Below, one piece after another: positions 7,978-27,542 of a stretch of 52,584 nt of DNA. The stretch covers positions 1-52,584 of the forward strand of contig JAJFUE010000164.1 in the NCBI GenBank assembly GCA_021372575.1. Direction: 5' to 3'. The notes beneath the pieces were generated by a model that saw nothing but the letters and a program-made list of their open reading frames with translations, searched no databases and was not told where the DNA came from. The number at the start of each line of letters is the position of its first letter. The first letter of the stretch is position 1. The translations under genes and the position numbers were made by a program. This DNA comes from a bacterium (GTDB lineage: Bacteria; Sumerlaeota; Sumerlaeia; MVZB01).

Positions 7978-8094
7978 GCAGTAGCCCGAGCGTGAGCGAG
8001 GGACCGGCGGGCGACAGGTTTTCGATTACGATTACGAGCACCAGCCTACGCCAAGGCTTCGGCTGGCAAGCCGAGCACGAGCACGATCTGCGGC
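7978..8094. repeat. Compound dispersed element (AGCCCGAGCG element plus 6-base tract with nested hairpin)
   Basis: A 26-nt element containing AGCCCGAGCGTGAGCGAGG (7978-8003) is followed by a variable spacer, then GATTACG units, a 30-nt hairpin module (8041-8070, CCAGCC paired with GGCTGG) and AGCACG units. The same compound lies inside a coding sequence at 16064-16175, and the element without the nested hairpin lies in the atp operon at 20211-20290. Confidence 0.85.
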
Positions 8095-8111: not shown

Positions 8112-8139
8112 CTTGGCGTTCTTGGCGTCTTGGCGTATA
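8112..8139. repeat. Solo copy of the 28-bp TTGGCGT arm
   Basis: This 28-base sequence of CTTGGCGT units matches the terminal inverted repeats of the GxxExxY cassette at 22939-23400 apart from one or two positions. Here there is one copy and no GxxExxY gene. It lies 12 bases before the glycosyltransferase start codon. Confidence 0.85.
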
Positions 8140-15238: not shown

Positions 15239-16831
15239 TCATTTCTTCCCGAGCAATTCGGCTTTTCTTGCGAGTTCTTGTTCGGCTAGGTCGCGGTCGC
15301 CCAGGGCGAGGTGGATTCGGATGCTGGTGTCGAAATCGGCGGGACGGAGGCCGCCAAGCTTCCAGGTGTGCTCGATCGCGAGCTGCATGATGAAGATCGC
15401 CACGGCGACGGCGAGCATTGCCGCCGTGCGCGCGGCGCGTCGGCTTTGCAGCGCCGCGATCAGGCCGATCACCCCGCGGCCGGCGAGCGGGATCAGCGCC
15501 GGGAGTAAAAACAGCCTCAGCCGCCCGAGCGGGAACACCGCCGACAGCGCCGCGATCAGCAATACCAGATAAACGATTGAAACCGAACTGGCCGACCCGC
15601 GCCGTAGCGCGCCGAGCCATCTTTTCGTCCGGCCGCGCACGATCCCCATCGCCGCCAACGGCAGCAACCATCTGAAATCGAGACTCAGATTCAGAATCGG
15701 AACATATAACTTGAAATACGCGTAACAGGTATTGTCGGCGGCCTCGCCGGCGGTCATCAGCGCCAGCGCGCGCCGGCCCCAGTGCTCGAAGAACAGCCAC
15801 CACTGGCCGTGGTAGGAATCAAAAACGCCGCGCACGATCCCCAGCGGCCGGCCCGTCGCGTGGTTCATCAGGTCCACGAACGACTGCACGGGGGAACTCC
15901 ACGTCACGCCGCCCGCCGGCGCCGAGGCCTCGTTGGCCAGCGCCCACGTGATCGGCGAGCGGGTGGAAACCGCAAACGGCGAGGCGCCCACGGCAACGTT
16001 GCGCGCAAGCAGCGGCGCGAAGCCGAGGAGGAACCCGAGCGCAAGCAGAAGGATCGAGCCCATGCAGTAGCCCGAGCGTGAGCGAGGGACTACCTCGCGT
16101 GCGGTGCTTCGATTACGATTCCAGCCTTCGCCAAGGCTTCGGCTGGCAAGACGATTACGAGCACGAACGAGCATACATATAAATACGCACAGAACGACCG
16201 GCGGGGTCCCCTCGTGCAGCATCGCCAACACGCCTAGCCCCAAGCCGATCCAAAACGCCGTCACCCGCTTCGGCCGGCGCATCCAACCCGTCAGTCCGAA
16301 CAAAATCCACATCGTCAGCGCCAGCGCGAGCGGCTCCTTGAGCGGCTGGCTGGCGATCATCAGCAGCGGGCCATAGATTGACGCCATGATTCCGGCTGCC
16401 AGCCCCGCCGCCCGGCCGAACATCCGTCGCGTCACCAAAAAGCTCAACACCGCGATCGCCGCCACGGCGAACATCTGCACGGCGCGTGCGGCATCGGCCG
16501 GATCCAGTCCCGCGCGGATGAATCCCGCCAGCATGTAGCAATACAGCGGCGCCTGGTAGAACACGTGCGGGCTGTACCACCCGCGCCAGACCTCCGCCGG
16601 CGCCGCGACCATCCATAAATGATACGGGTAATACACGTCGCGCCCCAGCCAGTCGCCGGCCGCGATCCTTTTGGCCTGCTCGGCGAACACATGCATGTCG
16701 GTCTGGTCCCACTGGTGCCAGTGGCTAAGCGGCAGGCCGCGCACGGCATGCAGGACCATCCCGTCCCACGCCAGCGCCACGGCCAGGATCAGGCCGATCG
16801 AAAACCAGGTCTTGCCAATCGTCGGGCGCAT
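15239..16831 (-). CDS. GT39-like polytopic glycosyltransferase or membrane protein, carrying an in-frame repeat insertion
   Basis: About 530 residues with around ten membrane segments and an N-terminal luminal loop (QWDQTDMHVFAEQAKRI, then GDWLGRDVYYPYHLW, and FYQAPLYCYMLAG) typical of GT-C enzymes that use polyprenyl-phosphate sugars. The C-terminal soluble part (LALGDRDLAEQELARKAEL) is TPR-like. Between two membrane segments the protein contains about 35 Arg-rich residues (RARNRLASRSLGEGW to PRSRSGYC) encoded by the compound dispersed repeat at 16064-16175. Reading frame and topology are kept: the insert is strongly basic and would face the cytoplasm. GTG (16834) and ATG (16831) are adjacent; ATG is chosen. 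Acceptor unknown. Confidence 0.75.
   Translation of the reverse strand: MRPTIGKTWFSIGLILAVALAWDGMVLHAVRGLPLSHWHQWDQTDMHVFAEQAKRIAAGDWLGRDVYYPYHLWMVAAPAEVWRGWYSPHVFYQAPLYCYMLAGFIRAGLDPADAARAVQMFAVAAIAVLSFLVTRRMFGRAAGLAAGIMASIYGPLLMIASQPLKEPLALALTMWILFGLTGWMRRPKRVTAFWIGLGLGVLAMLHEGTPPVVLCVFICMLVRARNRLASRSLGEGWNRNRSTAREVVPRSRSGYCMGSILLLALGFLLGFAPLLARNVAVGASPFAVSTRSPITWALANEASAPAGGVTWSSPVQSFVDLMNHATGRPLGIVRGVFDSYHGQWWLFFEHWGRRALALMTAGEAADNTCYAYFKLYVPILNLSLDFRWLLPLAAMGIVRGRTKRWLGALRRGSASSVSIVYLVLLIAALSAVFPLGRLRLFLLPALIPLAGRGVIGLIAALQSRRAARTAAMLAVAVAIFIMQLAIEHTWKLGGLRPADFDTSIRIHLALGDRDLAEQELARKAELLGKK
16064..16175. mobile_element. Compound dispersed repeat inserted in frame within a coding sequence
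   Basis: The order is the AGCCCGAGCGTGAGCGAGG element (16064-16089), a spacer, GATTACG units, a 30-nt hairpin module (16121-16150, 29 of 30 identical to 8041-8070), and GATTACGAGCACGA. This is the same compound as the intergenic copy at 7978-8094, but inside the gene at 15239-16831, where it adds about 35 codons without a stop or frameshift. Confidence 0.85.
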
Positions 16832-20210: not shown

Positions 20211-20290
20211 GCAGTAGCCCGAGCGTGAGCGAGGGACACGCGACCGAGAGGCGATTCGATTACGATTACGATTACGAGCACGAGCACGAT
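20211..20290. repeat. AGCCCGAGCG element plus (GATTACG)n(AGCACG)n tract in the atp operon
   Basis: The 26-nt element (20211-20236) is followed by a short spacer and a 6-base tract: three GATTAC units, then two GAGCAC units (20255-20290). It separates atpH and atpA. If translated it would give an artificial Asp-Tyr/Glu-His N-terminus on AtpA. Confidence 0.88.
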
Positions 20291-22039: not shown

Positions 22040-22933
22040 GTGGCGGTCGAATCGCTCAAAACCCTGCGCCGGCGCGTGCGGACGGTCCGCAACATCAAGC
22101 AGATCACGCGCGCCATGGAGATGGTCTCCGCCGCCAAGCTGCGCCGTGCCCAGGCGACGCTTCTGGCCGCGCGGCCCTACGCGCGCAAACTGCAGGATCT
22201 GCTGGCGCGCGTCGCCGCAAGCTCGACCGTCGCCGGCAACCCGCTCTTCCACGAGCGCCCGGGCAAGCGCCGCGTGCTCGTCGTCTTCACGTCCGACCGC
22301 GGTCTGGCCGGCTCGTTCAACGTGAACATCGCACGCACCGCCGAGGAACAGATGCGCTCCGAGCCCGACGCGCAGTGGCGCCTCATCTGCATCGGCCGGC
22401 GCGGCCGCGATTACTTCACGCGGCGCGGCTATGACGTCATCGACTCGGTCGTCGGGCTCGGCGGCCAGGCCGACAGCCAGCAGGCCACGCGCCTCGCCGA
22501 CCGCCTGCGCGAGATGTTCCTCGCCGGCGAGGCCGACACGATCGACCTGCTTTACGCGCGCTTCATCTCGACGGTCGTGAACCGACCGATGGTCGTCCAG
22601 TTCCTGCCGATGACGCCCGAGGCGTTGCAAATCGGCAAAAAAAAGGAGCCGGCAATAGCCGCCCACGAAACCGAATACATCATCGAGCCCTCGCCGCAGG
22701 CGGTGTTCGACCAGCTGCTTCCCCGTTACCTGAGCTCGCGCGTCTATATCACGATGGCCGAGCAGGCCACGAGCGAGCACAGCGCCCGCATGGTCTCAAT
22801 GAACAACGCGACCAAGAACTGCACCGAGCTCGGCGACCAGCTCACGCTCAAGCTCAACAAGGCCCGCCAGGGCGCGATCACCAAGGAGCTCCTCGACATC
22901 GTCGGCGGCGCCGAAGCGCTGCAGAAGGGGTAA
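22040..22933 (+). CDS. atpG: F-type ATP synthase subunit gamma
   Basis: A 297-residue central-stalk subunit. N-terminal helix VRNIKQITRAMEMVSAAKLR and C-terminal helix with ATKNCTELGDQLTLKLNKAR and AITKELLDIVGGAEAL form the coiled-coil shaft. The start is a GTG three bases after the atpA stop, with the ribosome site inside the atpA C-terminus. An inserted cassette separates it from atpD. Confidence 0.95.
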   Translation: MAVESLKTLRRRVRTVRNIKQITRAMEMVSAAKLRRAQATLLAARPYARKLQDLLARVAASSTVAGNPLFHERPGKRRVLVVFTSDRGLAGSFNVNIARTAEEQMRSEPDAQWRLICIGRRGRDYFTRRGYDVIDSVVGLGGQADSQQATRLADRLREMFLAGEADTIDLLYARFISTVVNRPMVVQFLPMTPEALQIGKKKEPAIAAHETEYIIEPSPQAVFDQLLPRYLSSRVYITMAEQATSEHSARMVSMNNATKNCTELGDQLTLKLNKARQGAITKELLDIVGGAEALQKG

Positions 22934-22938
22934 AAACA

Positions 22939-23400
22939 TTTACGCCAAGACGCCAAGAACGCCAAGAAGAGGAAAATGAAGTGAACGAACCGAGTGAGAA
23001 AGCAGATCGTTTGGCGAATCTTGTAATCGGCGCTGCGATCGAAGTCCATCGCGAACTTGGGCCGGGCTTGGATGAGCTGATCTATGAAAATTCGATGGAT
23101 GTCGAGTTGAAACTGCGCGGCATCCCGTTTAAACGACAGCCTGTTTATGGCGTGCTTTATAAGGGTGAGGACGTCGGGGTGAAAAGGCTCGACATGATGG
23201 TGGATGATGAATTGGTACTGGAAATGAAATCCGTCGAGAAAATCATCCCGCTATACCAGGCCCAGGTTCGAGGCTATTTGAAAATCACAAAAAAGGAACT
23301 TGGTCTCTTAATCAATTTCAATGTCCCTGTTTTGAGAGACGGAATCCAAAGAATCGTCCTGACACATTGAATCTTGGCGCTCTTGGCGTCTTGGCGTAAA
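22939..23400. mobile_element. GxxExxY cassette with 28-bp terminal inverted repeats, inserted in the atp operon
   Basis: The left end (22939-22966) and right end (23373-23400) are 28-base inverted repeats made of TTGGCGT units, identical at 27 of 28 positions. Between them is one gene, for a GxxExxY protein. The 462-bp unit lies between atpG and atpD, which are adjacent in standard operons. A solo copy of the arm is at 8112-8139. I see no clear target-site duplication and no transposase. Confidence 0.75.
22981..23370 (+). CDS. GxxExxY family protein (PD-(D/E)XK nuclease-like)
   Basis: A 129-residue protein with the family signature GLDELIY (GxxExxY) after VIGAAIEVHRELGPG. The likely nuclease core is the acidic DMMVDDELVLEMKSVEKI, which has the spacing of D-x(n)-E-x-K, and is followed by YQAQVRGYLKITKKELGLLINF. 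It belongs to the PDDEXK_3/GxxExxY group, whose function is not established as far as I know. The start is GTG with GAGG 8 bases upstream; an ATG just before runs into a stop. Lower GC than the atp genes and the flanking inverted repeats mark it as an insertion. It is in the operon's direction, so it should be cotranscribed. Confidence 0.9.
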   Translation: MNEPSEKADRLANLVIGAAIEVHRELGPGLDELIYENSMDVELKLRGIPFKRQPVYGVLYKGEDVGVKRLDMMVDDELVLEMKSVEKIIPLYQAQVRGYLKITKKELGLLINFNVPVLRDGIQRIVLTH

Positions 23401-23429
23401 AAACGAATTATCTCGGCTCTCTGGCGTAA

Positions 23430-24863
<1,434 letters not shown>

Positions 24864-24922
24864 GTGGTATGTCGGGTCTTCGACCCGACTCTGGATGCAG
24901 TAGCCCGAGCGTAAGCGAGGGA
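24864..24922. repeat. GTCGGGTC hairpin followed by the AGCCCGAGCG element, between atpD and atpC
   Basis: A single GTCGGGTC hairpin arm (24864-24893, loop TTC) starts right after the atpD TAA. It is followed by a 26-nt element copy with one mismatch (24897-24922). Two repeat families are thus stacked inside the operon without splitting it. Confidence 0.88.
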
Positions 24923-26401: not shown

Positions 26402-27523
26402 ATGATGATCGGGCGCATGATCGATTCTCTTGGGTGCTGGCGCGGACGTCGCGTCGCGGTCGCGATGAGCGGCGGTGTCGATTCGTCGCTCGCGGCCGCG
26501 GCCCTTTCACGCGCCGGCGCCCGCGTCATCGGCATCCACATGCGCACGCGCGCCGCGAACTCGTCAATCGCGTGCTCTTCCAAAGACGACGCGGCCGATG
26601 CGCGCGCCGTCGCGGAGCGATTCGGCTTCGAGTTCCACGACTACGACCTGCACGAACTGTTTCGCGACGCGGTCATCGAGCCGTTCATCCGCGAGTATCT
26701 CGCCGGCCGCACGCCGAACCCCTGCGCGATCTGCAATCGCCGCCTCAAGTTCGGCGCGCTCCTCGACCGCGCGCGCGCGCTCGGCGCCGATGCGATCGCC
26801 ACCGGCCACTACGCGCGCGTGCGGCTCAACTCCGACTCCGGCCGCTACGAACTTTATTGCGCCGCCGACCACGCGAAGGACCAAAGCTACTTCCTGTTCG
26901 GCCTCGATCAATCCCAGCTTGCCCGCATCGTCTTTCCGCTCGGCGCGCTCACGAAGGTTCAAGCCCGCGCCATCGCGCGCGACATGGGCGTCGCCGTCGC
27001 CGAGAAAACCGACTCGATGGAGATCTGCTTTATCCCGGACAACGATTACCGCCGCTTTCTTCTTGAAGAAGCCCCCGAACGCCTGCACGACCGCGAGGGC
27101 CTGATCGTCAACGCGGCCGGCGAGGAGCTTGGCCGCCACGACGGCGTCCACAACTTCACGATCGGCCAGCGCAAGGGCCTGCGTATCGCAGCCCCGCGCC
27201 CGCTTTACGTGATCGGCATCAAACCCGAAACGCAAACGGTCGTCGTCGGCTTCGCTGAAGAGTTGTTCACCCGCGCGCTCATGATCGAACGCATGAACTG
27301 GGTGAGCATCGCGCCGCAAGCCGCGCCCCTGCGCGCGCGCGTGCGGATCCGCTACCGCAGCAACGGCTCGATGGCGATTATTTACCCCGACGGCGACACC
27401 CGCGCGCGCATCGAATTCGACGACCCCGTCCGCGCCGTCACCCCCGGCCAGGCCGCCGTGGCGTTCGACGAAAACGACGACCAGCGCGTGCTTCTCGGCG
27501 GCTGGATCAAAGAAAAGCAGTAG
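26402..27523 (+). CDS. mnmA: tRNA-specific 2-thiouridylase
   Basis: A 373-residue enzyme that thiolates U34 of tRNAs for Lys, Glu and Gln using ATP and a sulfur relay. The PP-loop S23-GGVDSS is preceded by VAVAM. The catalytic cysteine pair is C108 in TPNPCAICN and C209 in SMEICFIPD. The middle domain has GRHDGVHNFTIGQRKGL and the end is the usual beta-barrel. Several ATGs are clustered (26402, 26405, 26417) behind AGGAG, so the exact start is uncertain by a few codons. The TAG stop is part of a 26-nt AGCCCGAGCG element, so the last residue(s) are repeat-encoded. Confidence 0.96.
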   Translation: MMIGRMIDSLGCWRGRRVAVAMSGGVDSSLAAAALSRAGARVIGIHMRTRAANSSIACSSKDDAADARAVAERFGFEFHDYDLHELFRDAVIEPFIREYLAGRTPNPCAICNRRLKFGALLDRARALGADAIATGHYARVRLNSDSGRYELYCAADHAKDQSYFLFGLDQSQLARIVFPLGALTKVQARAIARDMGVAVAEKTDSMEICFIPDNDYRRFLLEEAPERLHDREGLIVNAAGEELGRHDGVHNFTIGQRKGLRIAAPRPLYVIGIKPETQTVVVGFAEELFTRALMIERMNWVSIAPQAAPLRARVRIRYRSNGSMAIIYPDGDTRARIEFDDPVRAVTPGQAAVAFDENDDQRVLLGGWIKEKQ

Positions 27524-27542
27524 CCCGAGCGTGAGCGAGGGA
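27517..27542. repeat. 26-nt AGCCCGAGCG element carrying the mnmA stop codon
   Basis: A full copy of the element; its GCAGTAG start supplies the final Gln codon and TAG of mnmA. The next gene begins 29 bases later. Confidence 0.88.

Follow-up and report, generated by a model that had tools for sequence, protein, structure and literature searches.

Of the systems described so far, the closest to the locus considered here is REPIN/RAYT (TnpA-REP), in which paired, hairpin-forming extragenic repeats with variable spacers occur together with single remnants, and an enzyme gene lies beside the repeats (PMC3116915, PMC2817692, PMC8266576). The RAYT enzyme is thought to spread the REPINs. Our locus is similar in that inverted extragenic hairpin pairs with variable spacers are accompanied by single remnants and many gene-less copies, and in that a low-copy nuclease gene is framed by the same repeats. 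However, the framed enzyme is of the PD-(D/E)XK type, where RAYT is an HUH tyrosine transposase, the arm consists of three or more heptamers with spacers of 1-5 nt in place of one short palindrome, and no Y1 gene was found with these arms. As the enzyme is unrelated, this is not a RAYT system; we think it probable that it is a minimal mobile unit with a REPIN/RAYT-like way of working built on a different nuclease. Insertion sequences and MITEs also offer a parallel, having one gene within terminal inverted repeats, gene-less derivatives and duplicates at new sites. They differ in that the present cassette contains no recognised transposase, belongs to units of only about 480 nt and has left no visible target duplication, and in that most gene-less copies here have the arms alone in common.

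The window, that is, the whole stretch of 52,584 nucleotides that was analysed, contains the cassette and the following related features.

22040..22933, + strand: atpG, upstream neighbour of the cassette
22939..22967, + strand: left arm, with heptamers CGCCAAG at 22943-22949, 22951-22957 and 22960-22966, spacers A and AA
22981..23370, + strand: GxxExxY gene, GTG start, 129 aa, PD-(D/E)XK nuclease with its active site intact by sequence
23372..23400, - strand: right arm, inverted, with CTTGGCG at 23373-23379, 23382-23388 and 23390-23396
23411..23430, - strand: degenerate extra copy of the right arm outside the cassette, 20 nt, 75% identity
23442..24863, + strand: atpD, downstream neighbour of the cassette
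8112..8135, - strand: lone arm of this repeat family without a gene, in another part of the window

An earlier note on this DNA had described inverted arms agreeing at 27 of 28 positions. An inverted-repeat search of the window extended them to 29 nt each, complementary at 28 of 29 positions and spaced 404 nt apart, a pairing that is far from chance. Each arm has the form CGCCAAG-A-CGCCAAG-NN-CGCCAAG, i.e. three heptamers. The cassette is 462 nt long and, as had been claimed, it encloses a GxxExxY gene alone (22981-23370 is the sole convincing reading frame between the arms) and splits atpG from atpD. Five bases separate the end of atpG at 22933 from the left arm, and 41 bases separate the right arm from the start of atpD at 23442.

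The cassette protein matches TIGR04256 (GxxExxY) with an E-value of 3.9e-36 and 124 bits (curated cut-off 35) and PF13366 (PDDEXK_3) with an E-value of 2e-35 and 122 bits (curated cut-off 22), in each case over nearly the full length of the model, and it is a full-length member of both families. These two were the only matches in Pfam and NCBIfam, and no known transposase of the DDE, serine, tyrosine or HUH type was found. Residues G20, E23, Y26, D62, E72, K74, Q86 and Y90 are invariant among the 25 members compared, the cassette protein included, and both the GxxExxY motif and the PD-(D/E)XK catalytic residues are present. The AlphaFold model has a pLDDT of 95.6, and its best structural matches with Foldseek are lambda exonuclease (E 1.7e-4) and then Cas4 (E 0.004), both at a TM of about 0.5. 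A lambda-exonuclease/Cas4-like fold with an intact active site is predicted from this model. Lambda exonuclease, Cas4 and RecB-type nucleases thus share with the cassette protein its predicted fold and the D, ExK and QxxxY residues (for Cas4, PMC5704561), whereas the protein described here has only 129 residues, is encoded outside phage recombination and CRISPR loci and is tied to iterated repeats. A search by sequence for solved relatives returned none, lambda exonuclease and Cas4 chains included. Identity as Cas4 or as a defence system was rejected, since the library of defence models gave no strong match and only a partial one to Cas4b at E 0.018. The PHROGs search with the cassette protein gave no match. 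Plasmid or phage cargo was also rejected, the gene family being present in 8 of 72,556 plasmid records and, at the search sensitivity used, in 0 of 50,697 phage records. At two loci, L099 and L105, single reading frames contain two tandem GxxExxY domains.

Analysis of GxxExxY genes in other genomes, most of them draft metagenome assemblies, placed the cassette in a wider setting. The genes occur in 31 of 39 genomes of the class, with 1-8 per carrier genome. When flanks of 250 nt around each gene were scored, inverted arms were found at 72% of 71 class genes and, by the same score, at 0.9% of 323 control ORFs; the controls were ordinary ORFs of the same loci, Uma2 having too few members in the class to be used by itself. 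Species genomes were scanned with a profile made from five closer members, and among the best 80 matches, which favour one protein clade, arms accompany 76% of 76 genes compared with 2% of 251 control ORFs. These loci are from Bacteroidota, Chloroflexota, Planctomycetota, Cyanobacteria, Acidobacteria, Verrucomicrobia, Proteobacteria, methanogenic archaea and others. With no preset motif, the commonest local 7-mers are mostly CACAGAG, CGCAGAG, CACGGAG, CGCAAAG, CACGAAG, CACAGAT, CACGAAT, CGCGGAT and CGCCAAG. Arms fitting C[AG]CN[AG]A[AGT] were present at 62% of 149 genes and 0.8% of 377 control ORFs, and reversed decoy units gave arms at 4.7%. Across units the median length is 481 nt for the unit and 32 nt for the arm. 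GxxExxY genes are therefore generally framed by arms of their own heptamer in many bacterial phyla and in archaea, at about 75% of genes against 1-2% of controls. The earlier note had asked for such a comparison of flanks and had held that a lack of TTGGCGT arms at other GxxExxY genes would refute its own reading. The architecture of the arms proved to be the same, but the heptamer differs from the TTGGCGT type, and taken literally the other genes do lack those arms. At L053 the gene is flanked on both sides by an entire repeat palindrome and not by half of one.

The heptamer varies with the protein it accompanies. Mapped onto a tree built from 153 proteins, the final heptamer base (G, T or A) requires 5 changes, whereas 1000 shuffles averaged 15.4 and never fell below 11; within the class alone 4 changes are required, compared with 13.6. 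The link to the protein tree is weaker for positions 2 and 5 and for the whole unit, and position 4 showed none. From this comparison of sequences, the gene and its arms constitute one evolutionary unit. Joint inheritance would equally give covariation, which is thus evidence of a unit and not of binding. The link between heptamer and clade also provides ready enzyme/substrate pairs for specificity tests.

The arms are not confined to the cassette. The exact 15-mer core, CGCCAAGACGCCAAG, has 34 copies in this genome and 0-3 copies per genome in 38 genomes of class relatives, and a control pattern with the core read backwards had no occurrence. These copies are mostly gene-less, being inverted pairs or single arms. 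Twenty further loci, together with those read earlier, contain about a dozen inward-facing pairs with loops of 9 to about 120 nt, one outward-facing pair and about ten single arms. The gene-less pairs fold into DNA hairpins with z-scores of about -9 to -15. Their loop sequences are mostly unrelated, AGCAAT being common to the shortest ones, which indicates that the gene-less pairs did not simply arise from the cassette by deletion. In 36 arms of this genome the two bases of the spacer are off consensus in 42% and 61% of copies and the seven positions of the third heptamer in about 3%, a variability that can be read for the third heptamer, heptamers one and two having served as the search pattern. 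A conserved third heptamer beside a variable spacer is as would be expected of a recognised motif.

Comparison between genomes shows gene-less repeats to be abundant only where the gene family is present, much as REPINs are found only or mainly where their enzyme gene is. Counting four heptamer families only, so that all counts per genome are lower bounds, the median density is 0.3 copies per Mb in the 8 genomes lacking the gene, none of which has more than 5 copies in all, and 4.3 copies per Mb in the 31 genomes that carry it (p 0.001). At least 2 repeats per Mb are found in 0 of 8 genomes without the gene and in 20 of 31 with it (p 0.0012), and the number of repeats follows that of GxxExxY genes with a Spearman coefficient of 0.68. 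Once arms adjoining genes are removed, gene-free copies (3-63 each) remain in every one of the 13 genome-heptamer pairs that have a matching gene, compared with a median of 0 in unmatched pairs (within-genome permutation below 1 in 20000). Counts are nevertheless high in several unmatched pairs, with many repeats and no matching gene among those examined.

The earlier note had taken gene and arms to be a mobile unit, and comparison of sequences now supports their mobility well, through a duplicate, an empty site and cassette-free junctions in relatives. Two copies in G005, L080 and L083, are 96.1% identical over 462 nt and have unrelated flanks, the identity covering the gene with its arms and continuing for 14 nt outside the left one; this is the one near-identical gene-bearing pair found among 74 class copies. 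In G018 a unit lies right after a stop codon and ahead of a dnaE-like gene (named from its sequence). The congener G012, where the search found no GxxExxY gene, has a corresponding junction of about 70 nt that shares the left flank and lacks the unit, and whose right edge has diverged. A target-site duplication can be seen neither at the G005 duplicate nor at the G018/G012 site, though the right flank has diverged at the latter. At atpG-atpD, this cassette is absent from relatives in which the two genes are adjacent. The junctions of G011 and G022 hold gene-less repeat pairs of other heptamer families, and in G005 a GxxExxY gene is located just downstream of atpD. Gene copies are patchy among relatives, and some contain stops or are truncated. 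The cassette was also said to keep the direction of its operon, and this extends to the family, with 65 genes oriented with and 9 against their operon in co-directional gene pairs (rough ORF calls).

In G002, the nearest relative of the same family with this stretch, a nucleotidyltransferase-like and HEPN-like pair is found at atpG-atpD (L042 1031-1934); the junction therefore tolerates insertions of different kinds. L052 (G004) and L073 (G029), from different families, have related GxxExxY genes with CGCAGAG arms and similar DNA on both sides, apparently at a leuC-leuD-like junction. With flanks so alike, this could be an old copy that has stayed in place by inheritance, or a site that has been targeted repeatedly.

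It is possible to outline how such a unit might work. The GxxExxY nuclease would recognise the heptamer array, probably in hairpin form or as an exposed single strand, and process it, starting copying or joining events. By this means it could copy or move its own cassette and also, in trans, the gene-less pairs, the cassette moving rarely and the pairs more often. That the nuclease recognises and cuts the arms is something we infer, recognition being suggested by the covariation together with the variability of the spacer. Whether GxxExxY genes and heptamer arrays form a separate mobile class across phyla, with a small nuclease of lambda-exonuclease/Cas4 fold as the sole protein, spreading its cassette and, in trans, the hairpin repeats, and with the heptamer coevolving, we judge to be about an even question. 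No published account of an association between GxxExxY and repeats was found in the open-licence literature, and a minimal mobile DNA built around this unusual nuclease is apparently undescribed. It would offer a testable function for a widespread nuclease family, for which we found none, and would account for a large class of short repeats, among them the CACAGAG, CGCAAAG and CACGAAT types, found in many phyla. It also suggests a second origin of the REPIN/RAYT way of life with an unrelated enzyme.

Homing is a different way in which the gene could have reached its present position. The enzyme would cut existing gene-less pairs and repair from a gene-bearing copy would fill the loop, the repeats having spread by other means. 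PD-(D/E)XK homing enzymes exist and provide a precedent, the gene occupies exactly the position of the loop, and the atpG-atpD junctions of G011 and G022 hold gene-less pairs of other heptamer families. As in homing endonucleases, a lone small nuclease gene sits in a host operon and is patchy among relatives. However, the inverted arms are dispersed genome-wide, there is no intron or intein, and the cassette lies between genes and not within a recognition site inside a gene. Furthermore, the G005 duplicate includes 14 nt outside the left arm, the empty site in G012 has no pre-existing pair, arms of 24 nt are short for homologous repair, and the repeats follow the presence of the gene, which makes a separate spreader unnecessary. 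We consider homing unlikely.

A cellular role would make the heptamer arrays binding sites for repair, replication or regulation, with the nuclease serving the host and movement incidental. Such a role would suit heptamers that are far more conserved than the spacer, a gene usually co-oriented with its operon, and the rarity of the family in plasmid records and its absence from phage records at this sensitivity. It would not suit copies that are patchy among relatives and in some cases stopped or truncated, nor a recent duplicate and an empty site, and a single function would not require a genome to keep several paralogues, each paired with a repeat family of its own. On balance this seems quite improbable. 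That RAYT/Y1 (HUH) transposases mobilise the repeats with GxxExxY as a passenger is most improbable and was rejected. Y1 genes are common across the class, this genome having 13, and their number is weakly correlated with that of the repeats (Spearman 0.36). However, such arms flank none of the 24 Y1 genes, and the partial correlation with repeats is -0.02 for Y1 given GxxExxY but 0.66 for GxxExxY given Y1. Five genomes in which Y1 has no match contain 13-124 repeats, and a passenger would neither regularly carry arms nor covary with them. The preferred reading is still that of a mobile unit driven by its own nuclease.

Repeats of other kinds are found near these elements. This genome has two more GxxExxY genes, which adjoin GGAGGAAAC-type and CGGATGA-type repeats, and both (L010 and L011, on contigs C41 and C87) are within nested arrays of these types, with neighbouring arms at L010 pointing in the same direction. 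At L007 1500-1650, L216, L221, L222 and L225, CGCCAAG arms adjoin or surround CGCAGAG/AAGCAGAG-type arrays, as if repeats of different families used common intergenic spots. A second dispersed repeat in the window, GCAGTAGCCCGAGCGTRAGCGAGGGA, is without a heptamer array and has 5 copies where none would be expected by chance, all on the same strand.

7978-8003, 16064-16089, 20211-20236, 24897-24922 and 27517-27542, + strand: copies of GCAGTAGCCCGAGCGTRAGCGAGGGA
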